NCBI RefSeq assembly: GCF_947623445.1
Contig: NC_135242.1
Coordinates: forward strand, 5,456,001-5,520,000
Direction: 5' to 3'
Length of the DNA stretch: 64,000 bases
Source of the DNA: Clavelina lepadiformis
Lineage: Eukaryota > Chordata > Ascidiacea > Aplousobranchia > Clavelinidae
Every line of letters starts with the position of its first letter. Position 1 is the first letter of the stretch. Of the stretch, positions 3,406-58,754 are shown one piece after another. Both the position numbers and the translations under genes were made by a program. A model generated the notes under the pieces. That model searched no databases. It was not told where the DNA came from and was given only the letters and a program-made list of their open reading frames with translations.

Positions 3406-3837
3406 AGCTAACTGTTTACAATGCGTTTCCGTCATTAAACAAATAAAAGTTCCCATATAAAATATTTCATGCAACGTTTGCTCCGCATTTATGGTTCGGA
3501 CTCTACTATAAAATGGACAGAAGCATTTAGGTTTACAGTTAATTGATCCTTGCACTCGCAAATTATATCAAGTTGAGGCACTTTGTTGGTCGATCCATAC
3601 TTAATTGAAGACGCGCATTGGAAATCGGATTTTGTTAAGCACGTAGCCTAGGCCTACTCCTAAATATTTCGTTTGCTGTACTATGTAGGCTATTTCAATT
3701 TAACAGATAGGCCTAATAAGACTGAAAGCAATATTGTTCATAAAAGCTCATAACGCACCAACAATTTTAAGGCCATATCTAAATGAAAGTGTTTTATTTT
3801 AGGTTCAATTACCTTGGTGTAACCGGTTTATTTAGAC

Positions 3838-9504: not shown

Positions 9505-9677
9505 ACTTCGAGCCTACAAACAATTATATACTGTGATTGTAAAAGATAGTGTTAATTTATTTGTAATTGAATTTTCAAAATCTAACTCTGTAATCGAATG
9601 CAATTATTTAAGTAGTGTAATATTGTTGTTTCAGGAATTATTTTAATTAAAACGTTTCAAAATCGAAGGTTTTAATT

Positions 9678-9683
9678 AATAAA
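9678..9683 (+). terminator. Polyadenylation signal candidate, esterase 1
   Basis: AATAAA 174 nt after the esterase 1 stop codon. Confidence 0.5.
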
Positions 9684-11311
9684 ATGCAAGTATAACGACT
9701 TGCACGTGTTTTGGCATGTCCTTCAAGCATAACGAGGTCGAAGTCGGAAACTTTGTTACGCCTACAAGTTTTGTAAAGTGAAACAAAGTAAAAAGTTCGG
9801 ACGTACAACACTGATTGTAAATATCGAAAAGGAAACATAGGGTTGCTAAGATACTCAGATCCACGTCATTTTATTTGCCACTACAGTAGTTACTACTCAA
9901 AAAGAGTTGTTGTTGACTAAGATATTGTGAGATTAACAAACACGAAACTCTCTTTTCTTCGGTTCACTTTTCAGAACATCATTGGAAGTCGTCATCATGT
10001 TTAATGGAATGCCCACTCTTGCCGAAACTTAATTGCTTCTTGTCTGTCTGATGAAAAAGCCTGCCGGGGTGTGTTGAGATTTGTACTGGGCTTGAGTGGC
10101 CATGTATATAAAGACGAACTTTTTCTTCATTTTGAATTTTTTTCTTGACCCGGTTTCTTATTTATCTATACTTATTCAAAAGAGCCATCCAACTGTCTAC
10201 CAGTCATCAAAGTACAGTATAAAGTTGCGGCCGGGTGCTGCATCATGTTCAGATGTATCCTCGTTGCTTTTTAACAAATAGTAGTGACTAATTAATCAAC
10301 GAGGTAATTTAATGTTTAGCTGATGCGGTTGCGTTGTTTGGATGGACCTCGTGACCTATGACATGGCAAAAATTGATGAGTTACGACCATTCGCGTTAAA
10401 GGTTATGAGATGTTATACGTACCATACCATGTTGTGTGCGTTGTGGCTGTTCTATTTTAATTTTACACTGTTCTTGATAATGATGCTTTATAATTTTAAA
10501 ATGACGACAAACATTCCAGTAACTGCATCACGCGTTCTTTGTTTGTTCAATTCGATAAGTCATGTCAAAGAGTCATGTTATCGGTGCTCCTCGGATTAGT
10601 TAACAAATATTTAAGAGCTGCGACCCTGCCTGAGTAATCGCCGCAAATATCTGTTAACAATAACCTGCATGGAGTTTGATAAGACTTAGAAGGTACCGTT
10701 GAGTAAACTTGCACTACCCGTCATTATGAGTTGAATGTGTTACAGATGAAAAATGTTTTACAAGACAGCACAACTACATGAATTAATGTTCTACCAAAAT
10801 AACTATACAACAGATGATGAACACGATTGTGTATTTAAAGGCGGTTTATAAATAACTGCAGCAGTGCAGGAAGCCCATGCATAAGATCTTAGTAAAACTC
10901 CAGAAGGAAAACTGCTCCTGGACAGATCTGCAATATAACTGCTCTTCTAATGAAAGGAAGATTTTTTTTATTGTCTTCCAACGTTTCGGTAATTCTTACG
11001 GGTTTGTTTCAAGGGGGCTAAAGAAGCTATAATATGCAAGCGGGTTATTGAAGCGTTGGAAAACTTTATTCTAATACAGTGCATTCAACAGAAGAACATT
11101 TGTAAAGCTGTTGCTTCTCCAGGTTGCAACAGCAATATTTTTGCTTGATCAAATTTAATTTAAGGTTGAGTTGCAAATGTTCTGTGATTATTACGGAAAA
11201 AAGGCGAAATACCCTAATTCAAAAATATCGCAGTATAGCCTTTACGCTATAAGTTGCATGTTGTAAAGTGCGAGGTTTTATTTTTTCTGTTTAGATTGGA
11301 TTAAAAATTAA
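9684..11311. other. Intergenic stretch between the two esterases
   Basis: No coding signal that I can support on either strand. It should hold the promoter of the second esterase, but no convincing core element stands out. Confidence 0.5.
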
Positions 11312-15285
<3,974 letters not shown>

Positions 15286-16149: not shown

Positions 16150-18459
16150 TCAGAGTTCGTCGTTTGCGCTTCGATTAAAATGTAGTTTCGATTCAAAATC
16201 ATTTATCATGTCCATTATGTCCTTGTAAATTGTTCCCACTGCTTTGGTACCCCACAAGAAGTCAAGGTGGTCCCAATCTTGTAGCTGTGTGAAAAAATTT
16301 TGGACAAATTTTAGTCTGCTTTCAACAACTAGTTGTAAAAGGTAGTTAGACGAAAAAAAAATTAACCGTTCAAAAGAAACTTCAACAACACTTGAAGAGT
16401 TGTTGTTTTCATATGCGCGGTGGGTCGACCGTCGACTTATGCGCGCATTATATATTGACAAAAAATGCGTGTGCATGGGAATCTACAGAGACTTGTGAAT
16501 AACAGTTTTGTGTACAAATTTAATTCATCTGCAACATTGCCTTCACAGAGATAAGCGAGTTATACTCACGATTTGAAAATGAACCATGCTTTTAAGTTTG
16601 CTGGATAATCTCTTGCAGTCCATCGGATCAGCAAGTTGGTCATCAGATCCAATGAACAGAGCAACAGGGGCTCGGATGCGAGAAACGTCATATTCGGGCG
16701 GAGTAGGTTGTCCATAAGCTTCCATGTTTTCCTTTTCTACGTAAAATCATAACCACTAATTCAAAATTAAAATAACGTTTCAAAATTTTCAGCTGTTATC
16801 TGTTCGCAGTTAGGCAAAGCCATCACCACAACACAAAGCAACCAGACTTCAGACCTCACAACTCTTCATACTTGCGGGTAAAAACTTGGGCGAGAAATTT
16901 CTCGAAAAATACGAAATAAGCGGACGCAGGTTCAAACTTTGAACATGATTTTTTCAAATAAAATGACGTATTGTAGCTTGACATGTGAGGCGGACTTTAA
17001 ACGTTTCTCAAGATAACATAATGCCTTGTGTACCTCATTAGTAATTACATATTCCCCATTTCAACGTTGTGATTGCGATGAAGCAGTTTTAAGTGAAATG
17101 GTCACCAATAAAAACAATGCAATTTTTGAACCTTGCGGCACTTAGTGCTCGTGGATTAAAAAGATTTAACTATATAACTTATTTCGAACTTGGAACTTTT
17201 CGGTAAGTTGTAACGACTCTTTAATTAAACAATTCGAATACCAACTATACGTCTTAGAATATGTTTATATTTATTCTTAGAATATTTTACAACAAAACGT
17301 TCTATTATAAAACCAAACATCAAAACCGAGACAATCAAATAGACGGGGTAGTGATGTACAAGCGATAGAACCGTGAGAAACAGAATCAATGGGATAGATA
17401 ACTTGATATTTTGAAAGACGGAGAATGAGCTCGAATGTTAGTAAACCAGTTACCTGACCAGTAATTAAACTTCTCCATTCTGCCAGAATCGACTAGCTGT
17501 GACATGTGGACTAGGTTTTGCAGGGAGGTACCGGCCGGACTGTGAGAGAAGTAAATCGGAAGACGATCCTGAAAATAATGATGAGTATTGATGCCAGTTA
17601 AAAACATCATCAAGTTGTTGCCGTGATAAATCAAAGAGGCTCCAGAAGAATTATGCAACCTGCAAAGAAAGTCACATTCGTTAGACCAAAAGCTATATCC
17701 CGTGTTTCTGTTCCTGATTCAGTTACAACGTCAAAACCCTGGTTTCCAGAGACATGAAAAACAAATAACCTGGCTTCTGTGGCGAAGTAAAACTTACTCA
17801 TGAAGTTTCGCTGATATCCACTTCGAAATAGGTTTCTTCGGCATAACTTCTAACCCTCCAAACAGTGATAAGCCAATATGCGCGGGCTTGCTTAACGGTA
17901 CCAACGAACGCACTGGACTGGTTATGTCAGCAAGGGTCGACACCGGGCCTAGTGCGAACATCATCTTAATTTTATTGTTGAAATGTGGGTCTTCTGACAA
18001 CCTTGCAAATGCTACCAAAGTGCCTTGAGAGTGTCCGATGTAGTAAAGACTTTTCTGCCCAGATTCGCGAAGAGCTCTGTCGATCATGGCAGGTAGGTCG
18101 GACTGTGCCATTTCCTGCCATGAAAAACGCCAGTATCTCTCATCAACGTCAGGATTAAGACTTCGGTGGTCTCTGGCGTAAGTGCTACCGCGTACGTTGC
18201 CTAGCCATACGTCGTAACCAGCGTCGGCTAACAGAAAAGGCAGGCTGCGGCCAGGACCGTTCGCCACCCAGCAAGATGAATCGGATAAAATGCCATGCTG
18301 AAAAAAGATAATAGGTCTTTTCCTGGAGTGGGGTTGTCTTTGTTTTTTAGCGCTGAAGTCCCGTCTAAAAGGTATCCTGTGCAGGTCAAGAATATATCCG
18401 TCATTGGTTTCAACTTTGTGAACTTCACATATGTACCCGGCATGTCTGATCATTTCCGG
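16150..18459 (-). CDS. Acid lipase (lysosomal acid/gastric lipase family), 5' exon not located
   Basis: Exons in transcript order: 17798-18459, 17454-17659, 16570-16736, 16150-16284. The sum is 1170 nt, 389 codons plus stop, phases consistent throughout. The first exon found opens with PEMIRHAGYICEVHKVETND, the usual start of the mature AB-hydrolase lipase region. Then come FFQHGILSDSSCWV, the nucleophile GHSQG, VRGSTYARDH, the acid Asp in IGSDDQLADP, and the catalytic His in DWDHLDFLWG. These enzymes hydrolyse triglycerides and cholesteryl esters at acid pH in lysosomes or the gut; that is family knowledge. The family normally has a signal-peptide exon upstream of PEMI. I looked between 18460 and about 19400 on the minus strand and found no convincing one, so the 5' end is open. 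The gene is convergent with esterase 2. Confidence 0.9.
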
Positions 18460-18483
18460 CTGCAAACAAAAGATGTTTGGTGA

Positions 18484-20158
18484 AAATAACGAACTGGTGA
18501 GGTTATGTAATTATCATATTAGTTTTCTAGAGTTGTTAACTTGTTTAATAAAAAGGTAGTATATAGTTAATAAGAAAGTTATTAGTTAGTGAAAAAGTTT
18601 TAAACTTGCTGCAAATGATTTTCAATGAGTCGATTAATTAAATTTGTTTGATCATTCAGCAGCAATATTTCCACAATGCAAATTGCATTTTGTAACCATA
18701 TCTCAAACCTATGTTTACGCACAAGAGGTCAAAAGGATGACAAATTTGTCTACGTACGAGCTGACACAAGTGGAGCAAAAACCTGGTAAAAACAAACAAA
18801 TCAATCAACTGCTGACGCCGGCCTCTTAATAAAATCCTAATTTCTTAAGCAAAGCAATATATGTCACGTCATCCGCAACCGGGTTATCCGAGGTCGGTGT
18901 TTAAATGCAGGCGGCTTTGCTTAAGATTAAGGGTCAACAACTTTCGCCACGATATCTTGATTGGTGACTGGAGGTGGTTTTTTCAAATAAATCATTAATT
19001 AGACCACAAATTGCGTCCGTTTGTATTAACTAAACAAACTCCAGACACAGAATTGAAAGGGGAGATAATAAATGGTTTGTGTGATATAGTGAGACTACCA
19101 CCAACTTAAGAACAAAACGCAATGTAGAAAACCGTTTCTGCTTTTTACATAAAATTATAAAACGTATTAAAATAGCTGACCTTGAGGAAAAATAGGATCG
19201 GGGTAGTTTTACCCAAGGTCCATGCAATACTGGTGCCTCTGAATAATTGGTATCAATTGATATCTGACAATGTTTTGAAAATGTTGGTAAATAACAATCA
19301 GATAACATTTGTTGGGAACCATCTTTACATCACAGTAAACGATTTATTAAATAGGTAGTAAACGAAATTTAATAAAGAAACCTCTAGCTAGACGTTGAGT
19401 ATATGATATGAGCAAAATTTCATGTGATTCATCACTTGCAAGACTCTGTGATGCAATCACAGTTCCATGAGTGTGCTACCTAAGAACCGTATCACGTTTA
19501 CCAGTAAGCTTGTTTTTGCAAGTCTGATAAACGATTTAATTAACAAGTTCTTTGGTGTGCTTTAGATAACCCACTTACTACAAAAAGAAACAATGAAAGC
19601 ATTCCAATGAAAGCATTCTTTACTGCTTAGTGGTCTTACTCGAACATGTATCTCAGTACCATACTAAAATCACACCATAGATATAAGGGCGCGTTATCCA
19701 AAGGCAAATTACTATATACAATAGAATGATAGATAATACCACCAAGTTTCAAGCATGAGTTATTTGATTTCGGGATAATGATAATGATCTAAACGTTGCA
19801 ACATCGAGCGAAATATGTATATTGTATACTGTACTGAATGAAAGCATAAAAAATGTTTTAGTTTTTCCAGAAGATTTTATAAATACAAGGTCCAAGAACC
19901 TTGTGACTCAAACACTTTGTGAACAAGATTTTTTAGAAAATATTTAAAAATAAATAACAAGTTGTCAAAAAGTTACTTTGGTAAGAAACTAAACGAGATA
20001 AGCATAGCAACTTTAACAAAGTGATAGCAAATTAAATGCCTGCAATTCATCCTATGTACTCATATTTTCATACAAAATAGGTTTAACAACTCTCTCTCTT
20101 TGTACAACCTTAAGATAACTTGCAAAATCAGAATGTATATATCGAACAAGCCCCATAC
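18484..20158. other. Non-coding or uncertain stretch between lipase and unknown membrane gene
   Basis: One possible exon lies on the minus strand at 19181-19263, with good acceptor and donor and phase 0 at its start. It could continue the gene at 20159-21350, but nothing confirms it. Nothing else is supported; the lipase signal-peptide exon may lie here undetected. Confidence 0.4.
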
Positions 20159-27737: not shown

Positions 27738-28415
27738 GCAAGAAATCCTAAATAAAAATTTAAAAATAGTTCCTATAGTGCATACTAGATTATAACAGGA
27801 ATATTTTCAAGCTGTGTTTTCCGCATGTTGGCAGGTCCTTGGAAGTTTTAATTTTGTTAAAACTTACAAATTATTGCGCAGAGGTTTAATTTCAGAAGAC
27901 AATTTGCAGTGGTTTATTCTGCGCAGTGGAAATTTAAACATCTAAGATGTTTATTGAAATGGTTGGTATAGGCTCAGACGCAATAGAAATTGGGTCAAGG
28001 TTGTACGAACATGCCTATGTTTTATATGTTATTATATTAATGAATTTATTTATACAATTACTTTTCTGTGTAGTATTTTGCGTATAGACATGCAAAGCAA
28101 AATGATTTTAGAAGTGATCAAATGGTGATAAAACCATAAAATGATTTTCGCAGTCATCTAAAAACTTTTTAATTATATAATTGTAACTAGTAAAAATGAA
28201 AAGTACCAGAACAAGTAAGTTGCTTTTGAAAACCAATATTGGGAAAACTGCCAGTTGTCAGCCAACTATAAGTAACTAAAAAATACCATCAATAAAATTG
28301 ACACAATTTTGAACTAAAATTATCTTATTTTGTTTTTTAAGAAAAGAAAGTCAAAAAGAAAAAGAAAATATAAGTCAAATAGACTCTAAATGTAATGTTT
28401 TTGTGCAAGATAAAA

Positions 28416-30441
28416 ATGCCGTCAATTGCTGTGGGCTCGATTTTCGCTGCCACCCTGTGCCTACTGGTAGTTGCAAGTCCTGAAACTAGTACAGCAACAT
28501 TAGATGATGCAACTACTGACTCACCGACAATTGATCCGTCGATAACACTGGAAGGAAAGTGTGTTGTCGTTTGTGACGCCACATCGCTGGCATCAATCCA
28601 AAGGAACAATGAGTATTCGTCTCGATCTGTCGGATTAACGAGGAAAATCGCCTTCTCCGCAGCGAGACGCACGAGCAACGTCGATTATTTTTCGCCCGAA
28701 TCGGCCGACCGTAGGGTGGTGAAATTCGACCAAGTTCTGGTAAACATCGGCAATGCTTTTGATATGCATGAAAGTACCTTCAAGCCAGTTGTTGGTGGAG
28801 TTTATTCGTTTTCCTTCACGATTGTTAAGGTGTATAATAAATACTCTTTAACGGTTGCGTTAACGGTAAGTTAAAACGTTAATGCTTAACTTGAAACATG
28901 TACAGTTTGTGATGAAAGTATGTCGTATAACGTAAGCTAATATGCTTCATTAAAACAATAAACAATTACTGTATATATACTGTTAGTATGTAGTAAAAAA
29001 GCAGAATTTTACATGGCACTCTGGAGTTAACTTTTGTTTTTAAATTCTCTATAGAAGCTTTCGCAAGCATTAGCTTGCTTCATCAGGTGTGCTGTAATAG
29101 GATATGATGAATGCACTGTAGCCTACTGTACTTAATTTTGTAACATTTACAACTAATATTTCATTAACGTCATTTATTGAAAGCATGAATTTTTTGCCTC
29201 AATAATGTTAGCCAATTTAGTTATATGAATGATAATTAATTTATAAGCATTTAGCAATTCTTGTGTTTAATTATTAGTTATTACATATAATTAGGCCAGG
29301 TTTAAACGCTTTTTTGCCAACTTCATTTATATGAAGCTTTATTACTTATTAGCAGGGTTGCCATACCGTCCTTATTTCTAAGATTTGTCCTTATTTTGAA
29401 GGTCCTTGTCTTAGAAAATGTTTTTTTCCTTTTTTCTAAGAAATGTCCTTATTTTCACTTGCGTCCTTATTTTCGTCTTATTTTTAGGGCAGAGGTTCGT
29501 ATTTTGGGCATTTTGACACCTTTAGTATACCATTTTGTACCAAAGAGATACAAAATTTAAAAACATGCAGATAGTGTCACGTTGTTTTTTTGTTTTTTTG
29601 TTAGGAACATTGGTTGCTTTCTCCTGTTGTGCATTTTTTAAAGTGATATTCGTCTTTCGTTTCCTAGTCGTGCTTATTTTTGAGTTGAGACCGATGGCAA
29701 CCCTGCTTATTAGTATAAAAATATAGCCTGTTACAATCACGTGTATTGTCTCTTTTGCTGTTTAGAACGTTTGTTCTTAAAACCTTTTTGGTCTATCGGT
29801 CTAAGCGTTGATATATCAATATTAAATTAATATTATTACCGGAATATGTTTAAGATGGTTCGAATAATTTCAACAAAAAAAAGTTACCGTATCTTTTTCA
29901 TACTTATATTGCCTTAGTCTTATCCCATTTCATGATGACGATGATGATCATCATTCCAAACGATTTGAAATTCGCTGCCGTGATGTTGATCCTATCCCTT
30001 TGATGAAATTACTAACTTATGAACACCTTGTTTAACATCCTATATTTGCTTTCATCAAAGTATACTGCATGAATACAAAATTAAGTGATCGCCTCATGTG
30101 GCACAATTATTTTTGTTTTCAACAAATGTCCAAAAAAGTGTTTGTGACAACACCACACGTTCAAAGAAAAAAGAATGCTATGTAATTCTGATTGCGTTTA
30201 GCAATTTACTAACAAAATAATCACGATATTATTTTCTTTATTTGTGTAGGTCAATGGCAATCCTGTGTTTGTCGCATATGCCGATGGCAATAAAGCCGAT
30301 CACGAATTGGCGCAAAACGGTGGTCTTTTTCGTTTAAATCCGGGAGATCAGGTGAAGATAGAAGTGTTGGAAGGAGATCTAAATACTGGATGGCAAGATT
30401 CCACCTTTTCCGGTTACTTACTTTACCAAGATGATTTTTAA
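28416..30441 (+). CDS. Cerebellin-like secreted C1q-domain protein (2 exons)
   Basis: Exons 28416-28865 and 30250-30441; 213 residues, junction phase 0. I chose the ATG at 28416 because it directly precedes a good signal peptide (PSIAVGSIFAATLCLLVVAS); an in-frame ATG at 28395 would add 7 residues. A short acidic/Thr-rich linker leads to LEGKCVVVCD with cysteines at 49 and 53, the same C-x3-C motif that in vertebrate cerebellins links subunits. The C1q domain covers about 76-213: KIAFSAAR, VKFDQVLVNIGNAFD, GVYSFSFTIVKVYNK and a terminal STFSGYLLYQDDF. Cerebellins are trimer/hexamer-forming secreted synaptic organisers binding neurexin and GluD; whether this protein does so is inference. The intron carries a hAT-type MITE and a hammerhead-like motif. 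Confidence 0.92.
29050..29092 (-). ncRNA. Hammerhead-ribozyme-like core
   Basis: On the minus strand: CTGATGA, then a self-complementary stem II (gcaagc, loop taat, gcttgc), then GAAA. This is the invariant hammerhead core in the right order. Stem III and the cleavage site downstream (gcttctatagag) are only partly convincing. It is probably a relic of a retroelement of the Penelope or retrozyme kind. A decayed version is at 60987-61020. Confidence 0.45.
29353..29705. mobile_element. hAT-superfamily MITE with perfect 8-bp TSD
   Basis: 353 bp bounded by cagggttgccataccgtcc and its near inverted complement ending ggcaaccctg. The 8-bp duplication cttattag is exact on both sides (29345-29352 and 29706-29713). 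CAGGG termini and 8-bp TSDs are typical of hAT. It sits in the intron of the cerebellin-like gene and has no transposase. Confidence 0.9.
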
Positions 30442-31797: not shown

Positions 31798-34700
31798 ATG
31801 TACAATAAACTGGTTAGCCGCCTAAAAAGAGGTTGCAAGAATGCAAAGGACACGGCCCGTTTTATACGAACGCGTAATAACGGAGCAGAGGCAGTCCAGC
31901 AAGGTTTCTCGCACTCATCTGATCGGGGCTTATGTGACAAACAGGATCAACAACATCTTTCCGTCGACAAAAGCGTTCTTCGTAAGGATGAAGTAGAAAC
32001 CTCGCAAAGTGGATCTGTGGTTGACGTCGAACAGATATTACGAAACGGTAGGTGTCAAAAATTTCTTGAAGAAAGTTGTGTTTCTTCGAAGTCGCTCAAG
32101 TCCTCAATATACACTCATTTGTAACAGAAACTTTGATTTGGATTTTATAACTAGCTTAGCCTTTATTTTCTTATGTTTGGGCACAAAGTTTATAGTAGAA
32201 GTTTCTTATGGCCTCTTGATTTTAATTAACCATTAACTTGTTTCGAATTAAAGTTGACACAACATAGCACATGCCGAACTACCGCTCGTTTTCAGTGAAA
32301 ATAATAAAATTGAAATTTACTGCTACTTTATTTATACAAACTTATACATGTCCCATATAAACCAACGCAACACACAGCTGATTGTGCTAAAAACAAACGA
32401 AAAACTATTGGCTTTAATTTGGCCTTATGCCAAGGTTCCTGAGCTTTCCGAAAGGAGGGTTCCATAGAATTTCTTAAAAGTTGTTTTCACAAGAATTTAT
32501 TATATTACAGTATAGTTCACGCACTTTCTAAATACTGTACCAAAAGGTAATTTGTGTAACTATCACTGTAATGTACGGAATGTAACTTCTGTTAGCAATG
32601 TAACTTACAATGTAATTAACGTAGCTAATGCAACCACCGGCAGGCTATATTATTAGTTTTTGTAATGATTCGCTTTTTATAACGCTTTTATAGCATTTTG
32701 GTATAGATAAGAGGAAAATAAATGTACGTAATATAACGCATATCCGAAATGCAACGAATAACCTACAGGTAATCAGCTATATCAACAAAGAAATATACTG
32801 CAATACAGCTTAAATTAAATGTAACCTGTACTTATTGCTAATTGCTGAGGCAGCAGTTATATTGTACTTACTGCTTACATGTTTGCTAAACGGCAATAAA
32901 CTTTAAATAAAGTGGGTAAGTGACCATTTCACCGTAAGGTTAGGAGAATAGGTACATACAAAATGTTGATTTAAGCTTTTTGGGGTTAATTGAGATTAGA
33001 TTTAACTTCGAAAGAAGATTTAAATTATAAGGCTTAGGTTATTATGTTATATATATGCTACTTAATAAAGTTCGAAGATTTTTTGTAAAACGTTTGCAAC
33101 TTTGTATATAGACACTATAATATAATTGAAATAATGTTCGTTCATTTATTAAAATTACCTTTTTAAACTTTTATTGGTATTATTATTATTAGCTACAATT
33201 AGTTATATAATTACATAGTTTTTGTAATGCAACAGCCATAGCTTTTATTCGCTGCGTTCCGGATACTTGTTTTATTACGTGTTTTCGTTGCAGCTATACA
33301 GTTGTAGATAGGGGCTAAACGATGCGCATTTCCAACAATGAGGAATCGTTCAGGCTCTAGAGCAAGAACTTTCAACCGCTTTGGGCAGAAACTTGCAAAA
33401 CCAAAGTAACGAGAGTGTTAGGACCGAACCCGGAAAAATTGATATCAAATATGCTGATATAGGAACAGAAATTAGTGCGGCATGAGGATATACTGTGTGC
33501 CAATGAAAATGCGAAATTGTGTAATATAGCTAGTGTGTGATCTATCACAAAAAATAAAACCACAACAAAAGTTATAGCATGCAGATGCTGCTATTTTGCC
33601 AATTATTCCGGCCGTAGGATAATAATGTTAAACTCATCAACAACGCACTTTGAATAAATCCGTCTTGGGTGCCACGACCTGGAGAGCGTAAGACAACACT
33701 GAACAAAATCAAGCACCAATATAGAATTACTTAGTGTTTTAAAACAACGTTTGTTAAAATTGTTAATAACTTAAATAAGGTCTTGTAGGATAAAATTGCA
33801 CAACTTTTAAATTAGAATGAAATATTTTTCTGTGCGATTTAGTAATCTCGTGAAATGTTTTTCCTTAAAAACCATTCCATCTTCAGCTAATTCATCTTCA
33901 GAATCGTCATGGCTTAGCTTGATCAACAGCAATAATTACAAAAATTGGCTAAAGACTAGCCTCGCCCTTCGGTAAGTCATCGATGTAATAAGCTTAGGTG
34001 TAGAAAAAAACATTGGTGATATGCCTCTTTCATCTATTTCTAGATTTGCCTGTGATTTTGTTTCCCCGGTTTTAGAAGATATTGTACGAAAAATGCATTT
34101 TGACCTGTTACGTAAAAATGGATACCAAGCACTCAGCTCAATGACCTCTTTAAAACGGTATCAAGTTTGGATAAAGTATTCTATTCAATATTGCTAGTAC
34201 TTTAAGGGCAATTCACGTTTTAAAGACATGCACGCATTGATCTTGAAAAAGAATTCCAGGGTGCAGTATAAGTTGCAGCAGCAGCAGATAGCCAGTATAG
34301 TCTGGTTTCTGTTGCAAACGGTTATCTTTGCTTGTCAAAATGCTAATGTTGTTCAGAAAAAAAGTTTCCGAGAGCAGTTTATTACATAAATGGATGAGAA
34401 GTGTTCTGGATCTTCACAGGCATCCTCCATCTTTTGGTGAAGTCCTGCGAGTTAGTGATGTTACCAAGTGGCCGACGTATGAAGGAGCTTGGGAGATTGC
34501 AAAAGTGAGTGATTTGTTTTGGACATTCCTACTTTGCAGTCGCACTATGAATACACCAGACAATAGAACATCAAAGAATTTATTTCTAAGCAGATCCTGA
34601 TAACTGGATATACTGTACATAACAGTTATGTTTAATTAAGCCAACACAACATATTCGTTACACAAAAATTTGATCAAAGCAGGAAAAACAATAAGGGTCG

Positions 34701-37700
34701 TATTATGTTGTTGGTGTAACGGCAGGAATGATGTTCATGGCATAATCGTTTTGCTCCTTTTGCTTCCCATGGCAGTTTGTGACTTTATTACGTTAAACAA
34801 AGGCTTCATGAACAATGATATAGTTGGTATGGTCTCACTTTCATATTTACTTCATGTAGGTTTTTATGGCACGAGGTTACAGGAGTGGGGAAGCCGGAGC
34901 AACATCGCCAGGATCCTTCGATTCGTCGGCATTGTTGAATTTTATGTACAAGTGTCGTCAAGCGGATGGTTGTGTCAGTGATCTTCAGTTGGTCAAAAAT
35001 ATGATACAGGTTTGTATTTTTTCAGTAACAATCCTTTGAGTAAAATTTCGATATTCATGTTTTTTGAAGTTTTGCAAATACTATTCTCATTCTATCTGAA
35101 CTTTATTCTTGTTTAAAGCTTGCGAGAATAGACAATATATATATACTTGGATGTATTTATACTTTCTTCATTAGAAATGATCCGTTTCAGGTTAGGAATC
35201 GCACAATGCATTGCCCCAGACTGGAGTTTAATGATCACGAATTTGATGAAAACTTTGAAAGTATTTTTGCCTTACTGCAGGATGAGAAACTTCAAAGTCA
35301 TGCTATAAAATACCCCGAATCGCAAGGCATATTAGAAAGTCTTGTAAAAGTATGGAGCTTTAATGACGAGCACATAAAATAGGATGAAACTATAAAGGTA
35401 AGACAGCTATTCAAATAAAAATTTTGTGCAAACTGTTCGACAGATGAAAGAGTCCAACCTGAATATCAATTCATCTGCAAAACTAACACTGAACTTATTT
35501 CGAGAGGATTTATGGGAAAATGCCGAGTGTTCAAATCCAAACCCATCGGGCAGCACTTACTTGGTATATACACTGCAATAAAATCAAATGTTCTATTAAA
35601 TGTGTAGTATACTGTAAAAGAATCCAAAATTAACGCAATCTATTTATAGTCTTTGAAACAACTTGTCAACAATATACTTACCTTGCCTGAGGCAAATGTT
35701 TCTTTTTCTTCTCTTAATTATCAATTGGGTTCGTTGGAAGCGAAAATATGTGGAAGTCTACAGAACTCGCAGAACACGATACGAAAAGTGTCAAAACAGG
35801 TCAGTGTGTTTATAACAACCGATTAAAAAGCCTTCTCCATAAGAATGAGAATTTTTAACTTTTGAAACTTTTAGTTTCAAAGTTTAACTTCAAATTTTCT
35901 GTACTGCAGGTTACCCGAATGAATAGTGAGTTAAGCCAGCTTCGAAATGTGTTGAGCCAAACCCCATCACCAGAAGCGCTGCATGAACAAAGTCAAGATG
36001 TACAACAGAAGCGAGCGTTGGAAATAATGACACAAAAACCGAGACAGACAAATGTCAATGGCAATGGTCGTTCCAGTCACTTATCTTCATTGGTTGCCCA
36101 AAACGATATTTTCAAACACTACAAAGAATTCAATAGCGGTTATTCGTTTTTACCAAGCAACTGGAAATATGACCAAAGCACTGGCACTGCATTTGGTGAG
36201 AACTTGTCCTAATAACTAACGCCATAATATTTCCATTAACAGAAATCAAAGTAATAACCTGGTATGCTTTGAACGGTTAAAGGTATAGAGTTAGGTCAAG
36301 ATGTTTGTGACAAATCATGATTACTTAGGGTCACAAGTTTATTTAGCGCAAACAGTGTATAATCATAACCTAAAAATATAAATTTCAGGAAAAAACTCAT
36401 TCAACAAAAAGCTTTCTCCAAACGAAAGTTTTTCCTCTGGATCCTTGTTTAGCTCTTGGAAAAGCACTGCAGTTTTTAGAGGAAATCAAAATAAATTGCA
36501 CCTTTGTCAATCAGAACGTTTGCTGCATTGTCACACTGCAGCAACATTTGACAATCATGCAAAGGGTGCAAATAGTGCGCACAGGGAAACAAAACGTAAC
36601 AGCCGCACTTCACAACTACTTACCCTCAAACGCAGCGCTAGTTATGGAATAGAGACTTCAGACGCTAAGCGCGGTAGATTTGATGACGGAAACGACAAGG
36701 ACGACACAAAAAACAGGAAAATTAATTCGAAAATTCATCAACCTTCCTCGTTGGTAGTAACGCAGGTAGTTAGCTAAGTTTTGCTGAGTTTAATAAACGT
36801 TTGTAAATCCGCTTTTGAGCATTACCTTATTCCTTTACGAAGGATAAGAAACCTTTTAAGTCCGGAGGTGGAGGTGGAGGTGGAAGTGGGAGTAATATCA
36901 CCGGGATGCAAGAGAAATTGCAAAACTATCTTCGTTTACAGGTTTGTGCCTGTCATCAACTTGGGATGTCATATTTTTATTTTCCGTGTTTTACCGTGCA
37001 CTATAGGGTGAAGATCGCGAACTTTCGTTCATCGTGGAGAAAGATGCAAGTTTCAAGTATCACAGTACGGTAAAATTTATTTCAAACTACGCTTTAACGT
37101 CGTCTGTGTTGTGCGCAAGCAGTAAGGAAGCGGAACAACAAGCAGCTGTTGAAGTAAGTGATAGCTCTATTCATCGGGCGAAAATTTCTAAGTCTTCGGG
37201 TTTTACCGAGTGCCATATTTGGCAAGCATTAGCATAGATTAATATTAATCGATTAATCGCTTTCACCTAGGCCCTAAACTGGATCGGATGCCCCTACATT
37301 CACGATGTAAATAACGCCAAAGTCTCATTTGATAACTCCTGCCTAGCAATCATTGGAAGGGGTCCAACCTATACAACGTCCAGCGTGGGTAAACAGCTCC
37401 ACATTTCGTTGGTACAACTTTATAACAACAGTTACATCTCAACCATTGGCGCAGAAAGCATCTTGCCAGACAACAGACTATACTTAAAAGTAAACATACT
37501 GTTTTCTGTGGCATTAATTTTTTCTAAACTTTTTATCCCATACAAGACTGAGCAAAGTAATGTTTTAATATAATGTATTCAAGGAATGCTATAAAAGTTT
37601 CGATTGCAAAGTGGACACTGAAAGTTTGGTGGCTAAAGCAGCCCTCGAAAAACTGGATGTTAACACCGCCGACGTTGCTGACTACAAACGTATGACATTT

Positions 37701-38946
37701 CAATAACTTTTAACAGTGAACTGTACAAAATCGTACGTTTCTTTTTATTTGCCTATTTATTTTATTTTTATTAATTTGGTTCGCAAGTCAAGTGAGACTC
37801 TATCGACACTTAGCAGGCAAATAAATAAAAACGTATGATTTCGCGCGTAACTGAATAAAAAAATTGTGTAGCCTAATCATTACATTTATCCAAATGAAGA
37901 TACAAGTTTCAATAATAGTAAAAGGTGACTAATGAGTCATGACGTTCAAAGAATCCTTGATCATTTAAGTTAAATACGCTCTGCTCCCGGAGAAAAAACA
38001 ATAAAAAATTCTTCTATTGTTTTCGTGTATCGTTTATAGACGCTTTAGGCAGCATTTGCCTAGCAGCCGGGGCAACACTTCCTGTTTACGAAACAAACAC
38101 TGTCAGCGAAAGTGGAAAGCTGTGTCGCTCAAGCACTGTGCGAACGTACATTCGAGATTTTTTGTTATTTGACAAGAGCCGGGAAGGGGAAGGGGAAGGC
38201 CCCGAAGACCTGTCTCTGGAAAGTGACGCATTTTATTTTTGCCGTCCTGAGCCAGACATTATCGAAGCTTACTCCATACAAGTAAACTCTCTCCAACTAA
38301 AATAGAACGTCATGTAAAAGATTATTTTAGTAAAAAAGATATGCCTCAATGAATTAAGTTTGAAACATTTTTTATCGCCTATTAAAAAGACCTTACTTTT
38401 CTTTTACCCAAGCCTCATCGGACACAATTAGCAGCCGAGCAAGATGCGTCTTACACCATCTTGAAATTGTTGAACTGGAGCAGACCCAACTTGAATGCGT
38501 GTCGTGGAAGATATAAGCAGGATCTGAAAACTTACGCAGATAACTTGGATTTAACGTCAGTTTTTCACACGCTGCAGGTATTTTTGGATAGTGTTGTGTG
38601 AAAGTATATCTTACTCTTCTGTGAATATGCTATTTCCTGTACATCAATGATTAATAGCCAACTCATTTGGTTCGTTACTTTACCAATCTTAAACCCCTGT
38701 GTTGAATCTCACACACAATTTGCTGCCTATTATTTACGGGTAGCCGACTGCTTTTAGGTCAAATCCGACGTTGATCTTGTAGAAATGTACAAATGCGTTG
38801 TGTCAAGCAGCTGCCTGAAGGGAACTGAAGAGCCTTTATCGGTATCAAGTGACAGGAAGGGATTTGCAACACCACAAGAAGCGAAAGAATCAGCTGCTAG
38901 AAATGCTTTGATTATGTTAGGCCAAGATGTTGTTAACTCAAGCTAA
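31798..38946 (+). CDS. CXorf38/DUF4559-type HEPN-like domain fused to dsRNA-binding domains (17 exons)
   Basis: Exons: 31798-32047, 33887-33971, 34044-34157, 34357-34504, 34860-35009, 35191-35349, 35444-35563, 35650-35799, 35910-36195, 36389-36765, 36843-36941, 37007-37153, 37271-37489, 37584-37689, 38040-38281, 38413-38577, 38758-38946. The total is 3006 nt, 1001 residues, every phase consistent. About 90-300 matches the CXorf38 family (YKNWLKTSLALR, then AWEIAKVFMARGYRSGE) with R251-N-x3-H256 in VRNRTMHCP, a HEPN-RNase-like motif. About 300-470 is helical. 470-630 is low-complexity and basic, ending in a Gly7 run. dsRBD1, about 633-705: MQEKLQNYLRLQ to SSKEAEQQAAVEALNWI. dsRBD2-like, about 735-790: ends LVAKAALEKL. 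A third degenerate dsRBD ends TQLAAEQDASYTILKLLNW. dsRBD4, about 930-995: FATPQEAKESAARNALIMLG. Function unknown; dsRNA-guided RNA binding or cleavage is inference. Exon 1 is linked by phase only. Confidence 0.85.
36861..36893 (+). repeat. In-frame GGAGGT repeat encoding a Gly linker
   Basis: ggaggtggaggtggaggtgg gives seven consecutive glycines followed by Ser-Gly-Ser, immediately before the first dsRNA-binding domain in exon 11. It is a likely flexible, length-variable linker. Confidence 0.85.
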
Positions 38947-40195: not shown

Positions 40196-43110
40196 CTAGT
40201 CGATTTTCATGCGCTGTGTTGTCATCCTGTAAATTATACTGTCTCGTCCTGGATCCATAAACCAGATAGCATATGAAGCCGCAAGTGTGGCTAACACAAA
40301 GACCACCATGAACCAGAAGATCATGTTGGCTATTACTGGATAATCTTTACTTTTCGGCATGACAAGACCTTTGATATCAGTATGAACATTGATACTTCTG
40401 GTATGACGGGAATGAATTTCATCAAATGAACGAGGGTTTGAATAGATATGAGCTTCAGCGAGCAGCATACCCTTGTAAAGATTGTTGAAGGAGGCAACAA
40501 CCTGAGATTTCAATAAAGCAGGGATGCGATTTTGGTATAAAATTTGAAGTTTGCTGTGCAATTGAATTACTTGACAGTTAACAAAAGAACCAGAACAGTC
40601 AAACAAAATCAGAGTATTAATTTTGAAGAAATTAAAAATGAAAATTTTTAACTGGGCAAAATCAAAATAAAAGCAATTGTAAATGACCTGTAAGTGTTAA
40701 CAAACTAAAACCTATATTTTGTTCTTGCACAGAAGTAAAATTCTCTGTGGCACAATGTTTTAGAAAAGGTTAGCACTTACATTTGGAAGAACTTTCTCCA
40801 ACACACGTATGGCAGTATCAACCTGACATGATTTAACACCATACACTTTTGCCAATTTATGTAGGCCAGTCAAAGAAAAATAAAAGAAGTCAGGCACAGA
40901 ATCAAATACTGCTTCAGGGTTTATTTCCAGCTATTTAGAGAAAAGGAAAGTACTGTTTACTCCAACTAACGAAACAAGTTATACACTAATCATGTTTCTG
41001 CACAAACTTACATAGTTTACTATATCCAGCATTGCCTGTAATTCACCAAAGAAAAACGCTTCTGTAGTTCTTTCAATATCAAGACAGTAAGCACTGGTCC
41101 AGTTTGATGCCACTGAATTGCTTTCCTGCAATCTTTGCCTCATTTGTGTAACTGTTTTGCTTTCATCTGTACCAGCTGTATTATCAGATACCAGTGTCCT
41201 TAACAGCTGCATATTTTAATATAAAATGACAATGATTTTTAAAACCATGTATGTATACATAATTTTAGGGTAAGTATGATGTGATATAGCTGAAGCCAGT
41301 CAAGATGCTGGATTGCTGAACGCTGCCTAAAAGTATAACACATCTTAAAAACATTTATACTTTTTACAATAGTTGCCAAGCTTATTTAGAATACTTTAAG
41401 AGCGATATTCCAAAATTTGTACCTCCCCATCTGAAAGTAGCCGAACAATGGTGGGTTTTTTCTTGTCATACTTCGATCCAATGTGAAAAATAATATTTTC
41501 AGAAAATATCTCAGAAATATCCATATTTTTTGTATTATACTTCACCACACACTGTATTTAAAAATTTTCACATATTAGATTCATAACTAGATTTATGCAA
41601 ATTCATTTCACACCTATTAATTAGTTGCAATATAGTCATTAACAAAATTTTTACCTCATCCAAACCGATATGCATGTCATCATCTGCGAGTAAATTAATA
41701 AATAAATTTGCCTGAGGTCGATTGAAAACATCCATCTTTTTGACTCCTAAAAACATTACATAATAAATTTCACAAAAAATACAAGAAGTATATATAACAA
41801 GGGCATGGAATGGAACGAAAAATTCAGTATGGAATTGTGAAAGTATAGAGTAGAGTGGAAGATTTCATTTATGGAATGGAACAAATCTTCCATACTTGTT
41901 CATATTGATGTTGTTTTCATATTAAGTGTGTGTTCACTCTCTTTCAAGAGCAGTTTTGAATTCACATCCACACAATTGAACTAAGTTTATGGATTTCCAA
42001 AACAGTATACGCACATTTATACAATAAAAATGCATTTATCAATTGAATTTTCTTGCATAATAGATCACTTACAGTATGCATAGTGCACAACACGCATAGT
42101 CCGTGAAGAAAATGTCTAATTAGACAAACAATATGCTTCTCTGGCTTGAAGGAAGAGAGTTCACTTTATGTAGATTTATTAATTTTCTGTTCCATAAAAC
42201 TTTTAAATTGGAAAGTATTGTTTCTTCCATTTCAAAGGTGTAAATATCGTACAAAGTATGGAATACGAAATGGAATACATTTAGGTATGGAATTAAGTGG
42301 AAGATATTGCAGGATATGGAATATTTCTATATCATTCCAGTCCATAGCATGCCCATAATATACAAATATATATACATACACCCATTTCAAGGGCTTGAAT
42401 CAAGAACCTTCACCAGCCACAAACTAGATGGAAATACATTCCTCATTAGTATAAAGTAATCTACAATTTACAAAAAGCTAAAACCTTTCCAATGTGAGTT
42501 GGTCTGGGTTGAGAAACCCATTAAATAATCCAGCACGCCAGTCACATCACTCAGTTGAATTTGATTTGAAGTCTGAAGAAGTTCAATATTGCTTGGAACT
42601 GATAAAAAGCATAGCTCTGCTAGACCTTTGCTGAATAATCCTAAATCAGTAGCAATGTAACAGTTAGAAAAACAGTTTTTGCAAAGACTTGCCGTGGTCA
42701 CGTTTACGACACATTAGGAATTTCACACACTAAGAAACTGTAGTGGAAGTTTGTCACTCGCACATAGCACATGAGACTTATCAATGTGCTCACAGAATTC
42801 TTTCAACTTCAATAGACAAACACGGCAAGAAAGTTGGTGGTTTGAATGCCAATTTAAAACTGAGAATAGTGTTGTGCTAAAATTTTTATCTTTGCTTGCA
42901 TGTTTTTTCATTGGAAACTGGCAGTTTTAGTCTTGCTTACAGGACCTTACATAAACACTGTTACTTTCTACATAATTGCATATTTAATGAAGACATTATA
43001 TCACATCAACAAGCGTAACACATTTACATAATAATGTCCAAGCAACCAGAATCAGGCATTTTTAACATACCTGCAATAAAAATGATGAACGAAACCTCTT
43101 TCATTATCAT
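40196..43110 (-). CDS. ATP6AP2: ATP6AP2 (renin receptor, V-ATPase accessory subunit)
   Basis: Exons in order: 43071-43110, 42485-42598, 41655-41746, 41423-41551, 41012-41206, 40781-40930, then the last exon to the stop at 40196 (5' edge near 40553-40569). Exon 1 encodes a signal peptide (MIMKEVSFIIFIA). The lumenal part has LSDVTGVLDYLMGFSTQTNS, NRPQANLFINLLADDD and LTGLHKLAKVYG. The last exon carries one membrane span (MIFWFMVVFVLATLAASYAI) and the highly conserved tail MDPGRDSIIYRM, ending QRMKID. An RHTR/S site before the membrane span lies where human ATP6AP2 has its furin-type site. The protein helps assemble V-ATPase and also serves as prorenin receptor in vertebrates. Phases agree from exon 1 to 6, but the exon 6/7 junction does not close: donor at 40780 is phase 0 while both good acceptors need another phase. 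A weaker donor 4 nt further in, joined to an acceptor at 40570, would keep the frame. Confidence 0.9.
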
Positions 43111-45227: not shown

Positions 45228-45408
45228 AGGTGAAAAATAAAATGAATGGATGAAAAATTTAGATAGACCGAGTCATATTGTATTGTTTCATCTGCGCATA
45301 AAATTTCGCTCCACGCGCAGAATAAAAACTTTACAGATTAAGACTCAATAGTACAGGTCTTATGTTGCAGGCTTTAAGTTATTGAAATAAGCTAAATAGT
45401 CTGAAATA

Positions 45409-47980
45409 ATGGCAAATTTGTGCTGTTTACCAATGTGCAACAACAGGTCACCTGCCGTGACTCTGTTTAAGATACCTTCGAGAAAACTTGTAAAAAAGGA
45501 GAAGGAAAGCTGGGCAGAAAGGTTGGAGTGTATCGTGCTGGCTTGCAGAAGCGACGAGCACATAAAAAATCTATTTGCTCGAGATGCTGTGAAAATATGT
45601 GAAGTGCATTTTGAAAGATCTGACATTGTTTTAAGTAAAATTTGTTCTACATAGACTTACATGCAGTGTAACTAGTGTATTGAGGAAAGATATTTAATGT
45701 AATGGCATATCTAGCGTTTGATGCAGTGTTTGTTTTCCATGAGATGGTTTGATGCAGAACTTCATTAAATTTACTAGCGAGTGAGCACAGCATAACACTG
45801 CATCTGTGACAAGCTATTAGTGCAAACCTTCACTGTGGTTTCAGATTAATATATGTACCATTACAAGTATCAAAATTGAAAATGTTCATGTATGCACAAA
45901 TAAGAGTTTTTTTGCAGAGGGTTCCCGTAAAGAATTACGTGAAGGAGCAGTACCCACTTTGTCTTTGCCTAAGCTGACTTTGGCGCAGGTACATTCAAGA
46001 AAGCCGCCGAAGAAGCGTATCTTTGAAACAAAATTACATTTCAAATCTGTTGCGTCCTTGAAATCTGCTCGCTTGCCGGAAGGTTGGCAGAGGTCATTTG
46101 AAAACAAAAATCTTGTTTTTTCTTTTTATGATGGCTGTGATCAACCTAAATACTCGATTGGAGTATTATATGACGTGTCATTAAGGATATGCTATTATGG
46201 CTGGAAAGCACCTCGCTCAAGTTGTATTTACTCCCTGGATATAACTACTCAAACACTACACGGCACCATAAAAGATATTGAATCGTTTTCAATATGTTCT
46301 GGATTGTATAGTTCTGGAAGTGGCCTGCCACACATGACCACCAAATCTATGACACCATTCAGTTCTGAAAATGCACCAACGGTTAGGAAACTTGCATACA
46401 GGTGAAACTAGTTTTTCAATTGTGCCTATTGCATTTGTTACATAAATGAAATTTATCATTATTTAACATTGAATGAATCATATAGAGTGGTGGGATTCAG
46501 CCGGTTCGTGCGAACCGGTTCTTGGAATTTTAATGACATCTGCGAACTGGTTGTTAACAAACATATGTATAAGCCTATGTGTATGTCGGTAACGGGTCAA
46601 TATGGCATGCTGCTAGTGACCATATACTTACTTATTTTTGGTAACACTGATAATGCATTGCACTTAAAGTGTACACAGTATCTTAATCATATTTTGTGAC
46701 TTTTCTTGTTAAATGAACCAAATTTCTTGTTGTTAGAAATGCAAGTTGTGAACTTTTTCTCAAGGAAAGTGGTCAGTGCAGGAGTTGTTGTAGTGTAGAT
46801 GAAAAGGAGGGACGGCTCAACCAGAAAAGGCTAAATTATTACCATATGGTTAAAGATCAACCTTTAAAACGATCAGCGCAGCCAACATTTAACCTACCAT
46901 CTCGAATTACCTCCACCTTTACTGCTAATGAAATTTGGTGATATTGCACTTCGTAATCCTATTAGTAATAGTCTCATTCGCAAGATTGTCTGTGTCAGTA
47001 GCTGTGCTTTTTACACTTAACTATATGTAGATTGAGCAATGCCAGAAGATAGAAATAAAACAGTATTATTTAAGATAGTCTTGTTGTTATGAAGTAATTC
47101 TTTATTAGCATTAGAGAATTAGAAGCTAAGGTTTCGACTCTGTTAGCTGATGATACGGTGCAAGTGGAGGTAGATAAAATTATGTCAGATGACATGACAG
47201 CCATTGTTAAAGCAGGTATCATACCGATTACAAAGCTGGTCATCCAGAATATGTTACTTATAACTATTCTAATGAAGCTACAAATGTAATGTGATGCACC
47301 TACACAATGCATATAACTCAGTCTTTTTGTGTCGTGTGTTTTTGTGAAGTTTACGTTAATATCATACATTTTTTTAGCTCAAGATGAGGATAAAATTGAT
47401 AACTTCTACTCAATCTTTTGGAAAGAGCAGCAAAAGCTAAATAGTATGAAAAGAAATGGGGAAAGATATCACCCTGAGTTAATAAAGTAGGTTTAGGTCT
47501 CCTTGAGTAATAAACTACTGAATAACTACTAAGTTCAGAACTGAACTACTACTGAGTAACTAAGTTCAGTTGACCTCAATTTTTGATTATTTCGTAAAAG
47601 CGTGCTAAAATCAACCCTTGCAATTTTCTTTATAGGTTCTGTTTGAGTCTAGCTGCTAAAAGTAAAAGCGCCTATGAAGAATTACGACAAAGTGGCATTT
47701 TACGACTACCAAGCTCACGCACCCTAAATGACTATCGGTAGCGTATGGGTTCTGTTCTCTGCAATTTGGCTACTACAATGACCCATTGGAGGCCTATTTC
47801 GGTCATATGAGACAAACTGGCCGTCGAAATGAAGTGCCTGATATTCACCAATATGCACAATTTGAAAATGTGATAATGTGCAAAAAGAATATCAAGTCAC
47901 TTAAGGGGTCAAATGTAAATCACGTTATTGACTGGAAACATGGTGATGTTTGCGATGATCCAATGCCGAAGCGAAAAAAT
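45409..47980 (+). pseudogene. THAP-domain P-element-type transposase fragments
   Basis: 45409-45654 encodes a THAP zinc finger: MANLCCLPMCNNRSPAVTLF at the start, then CEVHFERSDIV, giving C-x(3-4)-C...C-x2-H. 45959-46405 encodes a middle region (LPEGWQRSFENKNLVFSFYD). About 47640-47740 has LRLPSSRTLNDYR, and 47786-47983 has MEAYFGHMRQTGRRNEVPDI, which resembles the C-terminal part of P-element/THAP9 transposases. The frame is open only in pieces; some gaps may be introns, but several look like decay. Confidence 0.65.
46482..46565 (+). repeat. Short nested repeat with gaaccggttc palindrome
   Basis: gagtggtgggattcagccgg then ttcgtgcgaaccggttcttg resembles one end of a small DNA-transposon family seen in many animals. 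Only one end is recognisable here, inside the P-type transposon. Confidence 0.35.
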
Positions 47981-55510: not shown

Positions 55511-58500
55511 GAGTCATTCCATGTATAATCAACCAATTTTTTTAAAATTTGTAACCACTACTCTTGGATTTTGATAATTTCAATATATGTTATAGACCTT
55601 GGAAAAAGCCGAAGATTAAAAAAAAAATTTTGAAAATATCTCCAGGCGTTTTCGAGTTATTCAAGTTTGAAATTTTCGCCACACGATGGCTTTTGGCTAG
55701 TGAGCACTGGTCACGCTTTATGATTTTCTTTAATATCTTTATTTCTGAAGGTAGAATAATAAAACAAATGTTGAATTTACCATTTTTGGGGTCAAGGAAT
55801 TCATTTAAGCACATAAAAAACCTATATCACACCTCCTTCATGGAGTAATTTAAGTTTTTTCATTGATGTCAAAGTTCAAGTTTACGACGCAATTACAAAA
55901 ATAGCAATCGCATTGGAAACATAATTTTTGCACTTTTGTGTAGCATGGTTCATGTATTTTCATGTATCCAAAAATTGGAAACTTGTTTTTTGTCCTTTAG
56001 GAATAAAGTTGGTTTTAACAGCAAGCACTATTTTTAAGATTCTTATAAGATATAAAATGCAGATTTGAGCAATATCGTATAACTGGTCATGCATATATAA
56101 TTATATATGCAAGGTTGCAATTCCAAGGCACCAACTGCTAGTGTTTAAAGATTATTCACCAAAAACATTAATTACTGCCTGCTAAAGGTGCACTCTGAGA
56201 GAGGTTACAGTAAATTTGAGTTCCTTTTTTGAACTTCAATTTTGCCTACTCCTATTTTGATTCTTATTATTTTATTATTATTATTCTTAGTATTATTTTG
56301 ATTTCATTTGTGTATGAAAATGATGAATTTGCCCGCTTAATGCCTGGAATTAAAGATTATGTAAGTGTTTCCAAAAATTTTCATAAGCAAAAGAAGCTCA
56401 TTTTGTGCAATTTGAAGAAATTATATGCCACATTTTGTGAAAAATATCTCGAGCTGAAGATTGGATTCTCAAAGTTTTGTTCACTCCATCCCAAATGGTG
56501 TGTCCCCGTATCGTCCAAAGGCACTCATTCTGTCTGTGTGTATCCAACATCAAAATGCAATCCTTCTGGTTGCTGCTGCCAACAACAATGAAACATACAA
56601 AACATTGATTGACAAAATAGTGTGCAGCACGGAGAACAAAATGTGCATGTTGCATCGTTGTGAACAATGTCCTGGGTCTCAAGCACTAGAAGGCTTTTTA
56701 CTTGCACAGTATGATGAGAAACTTGATGATGAAGTCCAATGCCAATAATGGAAGTCTACAGACACGATGGATGTTATCACGGTGTTAACGATGAGATATG
56801 AACGGATTCAACAAATTGTAAGAGTTTTGGATGACCTTACGAAGCATTCATTCATAGCTAAATGCCAATCTAGATACTTAAACTCCAGAAAGAGTTCTTT
56901 AACAGATGATACTTGTGTGATTTTGCTGGATTTCGCTGAGAATTACACTTTTACAATCTAAGATGAAGTACAAAGCTATCACTGGAACCAGCAGCAATGT
57001 ACAATCCACTCCGCTGTTGTGTATTACATGCAAGATCACATCTGGTCAGATGTAGGTCTTTGTAAGCTAGCTGTCTTAACCAGTCGTTTAACAGTACGTC
57101 CAACACCATCACATGGAGATTTCCCGTGACTGGTTGCAAAAAAGGACCAACACGCTTCCAGGTTGAAATCACACTTGTGACGGCACAGATTCAGCATATT
57201 TTTATAATTTTTATACTGTCCAGCGCGACCGTCCGAGAAATATTCAACTTTAGTAATGGTGCTGGACAAGCTTGGAATCAATGCAGTGAGTTTGTACAAA
57301 AGCCCATGCACAAAAGCTGTCTCATGTGTTAAGTCATCTGAAACAATGCAAAATGACTGCTGGTATCATCTGTTAAAGAACTCTACTGGAGTTTAAGTAT
57401 CTAGATTGGCATTTAGCTATGAATGAATGCTTCGTAAGGTCATCCAAAACTCTTACAATTTGTTGAATCCGTTCATATCTCATCATTAACACCGTGATAA
57501 CATCCATCGTGTCTGTAGACTTCCATTATTGGCATTGGACTTCATCATCAAGTTTCTCATCATACTGTGCAAGCAAAAAGCCTTCTAGTGCTTGAGACCC
57601 AGGACATTGTTCACAACGATGCAACATGCACATTTTGTTCTCCGTGCTGCACACTATTTTGTCAATCAATGTTTTGTATGTTTCATTGTTGTTGGCAGCA
57701 GCAACCAGAAGGATTGCATTTTGATGTTGGATACACACAGACAGAATGAGTGCCTTTGGACGATACGGGGACACACCATTTGGGATGGAGTGAACAAAAC
57801 TTTGAGAATCCAATCTTCAGCTCGAGATATTTTTCACAAAATGTGGCATATAATTTCTTCAAATTGCACAAAATGAGCTTCTTTTGCTTATGAAAATTTT
57901 TGGAAACACTTACATAATCTTTAATTCCAGGCATTAAGCGGGCAAATTCATCATTTTCATACACAAATGAAATCAAAATAATACTAAGAATAATAATAAT
58001 AAAATAATAAGAATCAAAATAGGAGTAGGCAAAATTGAAGTTCAAAAAAGGAACTCAAATTTACTGTAACCTCTCTCAGAGTGCACCTTTAGCAGGCAGT
58101 AATTAATGTTTTTGGTGAATAATCTTTAAACACTAGCAGTTGGTGCCTTGGAATTGCAACCTTGCATATATAATTATATATGCATGACCAGTTATACGAT
58201 ATTGCTCAAATCTGCATTTTATATCTTATAAGAATCTTAAAAATAGTGCTTGCTGTTAAAACCAACTTTATTCCTAAAGGACAAAAAACAAGTTTCCAAT
58301 TTTTGGATACATGAAAATACATGAACCATGCTACACAAAAGTGCAAAAATTATGTTTCCAATGCGATTGCTATTTTTGTAATTGCGTCGTAAACTTGAAC
58401 TTTGACATCAATGAAAAAACTTAAATTACTCCATGAAGGAGGTGTGATATAGGTTTTTTATGTGCTTAAATGAATTCCTTGACCCCAAAAATGGTAAATT

Positions 58501-58754
58501 CAACATTTGTTTTATTATTCTACCTTCAGAAATAAAGATATTAAAGAAAATCATAAAGCGTGACCAGTGCTCACTAGCCAAAAGCCATCGTGTGGCGAAA
58601 ATTTCAAACTTGAATAACTCGAAAACGCCTGGAGATATTTTCAAAATTTTTTTTTTAATCTTCGGCTTTTTCCAAGGTCTATAACATATATTGAAATTAT
58701 CAAAATCCAAGAGTAGTGGTTACAGGGCCTGGTTGATTATACATGGAATGACTC
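55511..58754. mobile_element. Large transposon-derived palindrome (two inverted copies of one element)
   Basis: Arms about 55511-56922 and 57352-58754 are mirror images with near-total identity; the same conceptual proteins appear at 55564 plus and 58710 minus, 56461 plus and 57813 minus. The spacer is about 430 bp. Both outer ends read gagtcattccatgtataatc; agtg on both sides may be a 4-bp TSD. The encoded protein resembles a transposon-borne gene of many invertebrates (SVCIQHQNAILLVAAANN, LDFAENYTF, and in the spacer on the minus strand VEYFSDGRAGQYKNYKN and FFATSHGKSPCDGVG). I cannot assign a superfamily with confidence. The element looks broken. Confidence 0.8.

Follow-up and report, generated by a model that had tools for sequence, protein, structure and literature searches.

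The gene examined here lies on the forward strand of the ascidian Clavelina lepadiformis, at positions 31798..38946 of the 64,000-nt stretch of DNA that was analysed (hereafter the window, to which all coordinates refer), and consists of an open chain of exons encoding a member of the DUF4559 family with an HEPN motif (Table 1). We rebuilt 17 exons from the raw sequence and obtained an in-phase chain of 1001 residues followed by a stop codon, with GT-AG boundaries at all 16 introns, exactly reproducing the gene structure claimed in an earlier sequence-only reading of the locus. The coding character of the chain was assessed with a codon-usage score trained on 1190 codons in total, drawn from exons 2-6 and from open frames elsewhere in the window, not all of which have a Pfam match of their own. 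All 12 exons that did not contribute to the training set (exon 1 and exons 7-17) had positive scores, the proposed frame being the best of six in each case, and a positive best-frame value was obtained for just one of the 16 introns (0.8 bits). The signal is uneven along the gene: exon 8 scores weakly (1.9 bits), exon 7 is in a near tie with another frame (7.9 versus 7.0), and exon 2, itself part of the training set, is outscored by an antisense frame (4.0 versus 5.1). Given that the exons were picked for openness and that stop codons are penalized, both of which favour exons, the codon score amounts to support for the model rather than proof.

Table 1. Features of the gene at 31798..38946, with exon boundaries according to the rebuilt model.
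Feature	Position	Strand	Basis and remarks
Exon 1	31798..32047	+	Residues 1-83; N-terminal region, no Pfam match; codon score 25.4 bits in frame
DUF4559/CXorf38 HEPN module, exons 2-6	33887..35349	+	Exons 2-6 by themselves match PF15112 with 131.3 bits
Exons 2-6, individually	33887-33971, 34044-34157, 34357-34504, 34860-35009, 35191-35349	+	Rebuilt model
HEPN motif RNRTMH, residues 251-256	35194..35211	+	Lies within a weak match to HEPN_Swt1 (E 0.12), under the threshold
Doubtful intron 6	35350..35443	+	In-frame TAG at 35380; stronger donor at 35398; AATAAA at 35414; ATG at 35444 opens exon 7
Exons 7-10	35444..36765	+	Weak coiled-coil character (Sec3_CC matches, weak and under cut-off), followed by a linker rich in Ser and Asn (composition)
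Exons 7-10, individually	35444-35563, 35650-35799, 35910-36195, 36389-36765	+	Rebuilt model
dsRBD-like unit 1, residues 626-702, exons 11-13	36879..37291	+	Pfam dsrm E 0.0044, below cut-off; beats 500/500 shuffles (run with residues 620-702)
Degenerate dsRBD-like unit 2, residues 707-797, exons 13-14	37304..37670	+	Recognized by eye alone; no excess over shuffles
Degenerate dsRBD-like unit 3, residues 804-906, exons 15-16	38040..38478	+	Recognized by eye alone; no excess over shuffles
dsRBD-like unit 4, residues 915-996, exons 16-17	38503..38928	+	Beats 500/500 shuffles, last helix only (residues 915-1001 used); without a Pfam match

The N-terminal part of the protein had been taken for a CXorf38-like (DUF4559) module of the HEPN type, and the DUF4559 profile search that was proposed along with this assignment bears it out: in the whole protein, residues 97-314 match PF15112 with an E-value of 1.3e-37 and 130.3 bits, far above the curated cut-off of 27, the match ending at profile position 215 of 305. 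Members of the HEPN superfamily are characterized by an Rx4-6H motif in which the arginine is followed by a polar residue (PMC3710099). The putative active-site motif anticipated for the module is present as RNRTMH, which conforms to this rule and retains an intact R-N-x3-H form. Judging from the sequence, both the CXorf38 identity and the HEPN-type active-site motif are well supported, and the gene is likely to encode an RNA-cutting enzyme of the CXorf38 family. A zinc ribbon inserted in the HEPN domain is reported for this family (PMC3710099, Table 1), but it is not a criterion of the Pfam DUF4559 model. No such ribbon was found in residues 84-302, where the only cysteines (115, 231, 237 and 257) form no CxxC; a missed exon was sought by eye in intron 3. 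A search among solved structures returned no relative of the HEPN module, none of the 25 pattern matches to the exon 5-6 part in Bacteria and Archaea was confirmed, and a search of plasmid DNA yielded no match. A PADLOC match to DpdF (E 0.016), lone, weak and located away from the motif, was taken as chance. Sec3_CC (in exons 7-10), Ferritin_2, IFT46, HAUS1 and other Pfam families gave weak matches, all below cut-off, and no domain was called from them.

The C-terminal half had been described as carrying two clear and two degenerate dsRBDs. The search with Pfam dsrm (PF00035) gave an E-value of 0.09 for the whole protein and, for unit 1 alone, E-values of 0.0048 and 0.0044 (17.9 and 18.0 bits), under the cut-off of 23; units 2, 3 and 4 had no dsrm match. 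We also built a dsRBD profile of our own from 12 rows, representing five chains, of dsRBDs with solved structures. With this profile, unit 1 scored 8.5 bits and unit 4 scored 8.0 bits, each exceeding all of its 500 shuffled versions, and units 2 and 3 scored -1.1 and 0.6 bits, respectively, with no excess over shuffles. Similarly, in hhalign comparisons, units 1 and 4 surpassed 60 of 60 shuffles, though with probabilities of just 13% and 16%, and the scores of units 2 and 3 were reached by 2 and 27 of the 60 shuffles, respectively. The hhalign alignment of unit 1 spans 59 columns, and what remains of the dsRBD signal is the last helix. Only units 1 and 4 stand out from shuffles, mainly on account of their last helices, and the resemblance is weaker than had been claimed, the best dsrm match staying below cut-off; units 2 and 3 are possibly not dsRBDs. 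Structure prediction for single exons gave a poor fold for exon 17 (pLDDT 66.5) and three strands for exon 15, but at a pLDDT of just 38.2. The search among solved structures found no relative of unit 4 and, for the C-terminal part, only unrelated chains with E-values of 0.56 or worse; NCBIfam, searched with units 1 and 4 only, gave just weak unrelated matches.

The residues through which dsRBDs usually contact RNA were compared between the four units, with manual alignment of their helices, and the 12 reference rows, which lean towards canonical RNA binders because they were found with a consensus carrying GPDH and KK. The GxxH loop is present in 10 of the 12 references and in none of the units; among the three KKxxK columns, at least two are basic in 11 of the 12 references compared to none or one in every unit; and the net charge is negative in all four units, ranging from -1 to -7. 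Given the missing GxxH loop, the scarcity of basic residues at the KKxxK positions and the negative charge, direct dsRNA binding, by which the RNase was supposed to be steered to its target, is unsupported, though possible. Domains of the dsRBD fold that lack RNA contacts are often protein binders, dsRBD3 of TARBP2 being an example.

The nearest recognized neighbour upstream of the gene is an open frame with a C1q domain (28383-28871, forward strand), and, on the other side, a C-terminal exon of a Renin_r gene (ATP6AP2-like, renin-receptor; 40199-40696, reverse strand) lies in convergent orientation, about 1.25 kb past the stop codon. Ten open frames were scanned, and these neighbours show no sign of an immune gene cluster. 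The Renin_r, C1q and THAP domains in the vicinity accord with an animal source. Elsewhere in the window, the region 3823-15282 (forward strand) probably contains two tandem carboxylesterase-like genes, with COesterase matches at 6857-7177 and 12523-12861, each flanked on both sides by similar open frames, and a lipase-like gene with an Abhydro_lipase match is found at 17797-18510 (reverse strand). A DDE_1 transposase-like fragment (5804-6319, forward strand; 21.9 bits, just under the Pfam cut-off of 22) and a THAP domain (45400-45651, forward strand; above the Pfam cut-off) are possibly transposon remains. A perfect inverted repeat, with arms of 1339 nt (55550-56888 and 57386-58724; 100% identity) and a spacer of 497 nt, could stem from a recent duplication in palindromic form, from a fold-back element or from misassembly.

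Whether the two halves belong to one polypeptide, as had been claimed, hinges on the join between exons 6 and 7. The chain closes in phase across it. A single product is plausible but depends on a weak splice site: the donor modelled at 35350 scores 3.7, whereas the one at 35398 reaches 9.33, more than the best of the 16 modelled donors (8.52), and none of the 16 acceptors is weaker than that modelled for exon 7 (0.32). If the donor at 35398 is used, the in-frame TAG at 35380 is retained. The locus could then give rise to two products, with exons 1-6 ending at this TAG and encoding a CXorf38-type protein of ~312 residues, and exons 7-17 forming either an SL trans-spliced operon partner that starts from the ATG at 35444 or part of another isoform. 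The AATAAA at 35414 and the ATG at the very start of exon 7 fit such an arrangement, as does the precedent of Ciona, in which about 20% of genes reside in operons and abutting operon genes are often mispredicted as one fused gene (PMC2760879). Nor does DUF4559 homology prove the join, because adding exon 7 raised the score only from 131.3 to 134.1 bits (+2.8) and nine shuffled versions of this exon came near, at 130.8-133.7 bits; still, the real exon exceeded all nine, if barely. Reading exon 6 through to its stop (131.3 bits) or extending it past the stop, with X in its place (130.7 bits), brought no gain over exons 2-6 alone, and inserting five residues at the exon 6/7 junction (132.9 bits) brought none over the plain join. 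Against two products, the donor of exon 6 is no outlier: five of the 16 modelled donors are weaker, a stronger GT lies further down in six of the 16 introns (intron 6 included), and A(A/T)TAAA occurs in seven of the 16. The donor at 35398 combined with the same acceptor would leave an intron of 46 nt, below the model minimum of 65 nt, the phases of exons 6 and 7 are compatible, and fusion of CXorf38 to dsRBDs has been published for related or neighbouring deuterostome groups (PMC3710099). Taken together, we regard two separate products as rather unlikely.

The explanation that we place first, with about even confidence, is that of a single CXorf38-family protein comprising an HEPN RNase active as a pair and a worn dsRBD-like array that joins copies or partners. 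HEPN RNases work as pairs, and the N-terminal module would most likely cut RNA once two copies meet, as in other HEPN RNases. The C-terminal array, which comes after a segment of coiled-coil-like character and a flexible linker, would most likely hold the copies together or recruit partners, with weak RNA binding at most. Catalysis, pairing, the role of the array and the union of both halves in one protein are what we infer from the DUF4559 match (E 1.3e-37), the fit of RNRTMH to the Rx4-6H rule, the top scores of 12/12 untrained exons in the proposed frame, the excess of units 1 and 4 over 500/500 shuffles with our own profile and 60/60 with hhalign, the absence of GxxH and the scarcity of basic residues at the KKxxK positions in all four units, and the published description of the family as predicted active and, in related deuterostomes, fused to dsRBDs (PMC3710099). 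Set against this explanation are the weak exon 6/7 join, the unseen zinc ribbon, the doubtful nature of units 2 and 3, the poor single-exon folds (pLDDT 66.5 and 38.2) and the bias of the reference rows towards canonical RNA binders. In a further elaboration, possible but doubtful, the RNase would be switched, rather than by RNA, by dsRBD-like modules that have lost their RNA contacts and pair copies or recruit an RNA-binding partner, the whole representing a lineage-specific rewiring of the published HEPN-dsRBD plan in which the zinc ribbon was lost. It is unlikely that viral dsRNA is bound directly by the array, with the HEPN modules brought or paired there, in an RNase L-like response within one polypeptide; a proposal of this kind has been published at the level of the family (PMC3710099), the HEPN motif is intact and units 1 and 4 keep dsRBD-like last helices, but, in the hand-aligned helices, none of the four units has GxxH or more than one basic residue at the three KKxxK positions, their charges are -1 to -7, and units 2 and 3 fail to beat shuffles. 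Least probable by far, we believe, is a module that no longer cuts RNA or a locus that is a decaying copy, to which the unseen zinc ribbon and several weak splice sites might point; a 1001-codon open frame, an intact motif, a strong family score and coding-like exons all speak against this reading.

This divergent invertebrate member of the CXorf38 family, with its intact motif, offers a natural comparison for asking whether the family has RNA-cutting activity and how such activity would be switched. For the family, to which the human protein CXorf38 belongs, a limited look, by title, found no report of tests for RNase activity or for dsRNA binding. In the available portion of the main text of PMC12196990, the terms HEPN, DUF4559, RNase, domain and interferon do not appear. 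The locus is also an example of a splice junction at which gene modelling might create a false fusion.

The pairing of modules had been presented as unfamiliar. However, fusion of CXorf38-family proteins to dsRBDs, together with their proposed action on viral dsRNA, was published in 2013 by Anantharaman et al. (PMC3710099), whose table apparently includes Ciona among the carriers of the family. Because the same kind of fusion is described there, the pairing is not new, and the antiviral idea has likewise been anticipated; the Clavelina gene is real, a divergent representative of a family already known, and probably follows the published CXorf38-dsRBD fusion plan. Compared to the dsRBDs of PKR, ADAR1 and TARBP2, two of the units share the pattern of the last helix, but the units lack the GxxH loop, have few lysines at the KKxxK positions and are net negative. 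With RNase L and Ire1, HEPN RNases of the KEN type, the protein shares the R-polar-x3-H motif and a proposed role in defence; it has no Pfam kinase or ankyrin match, and the kinship is at the superfamily level only (PMC3710099). With respect to the CXorf38 family itself (PF15112; HEPN superfamily, the Swt1-like group of PMC3710099), the inserted zinc ribbon was not found here and the dsRBD-like units are very divergent, but the strong profile match, the Rx4-6H motif and the published fusions to dsRBDs (PMC3710099) are features in common.
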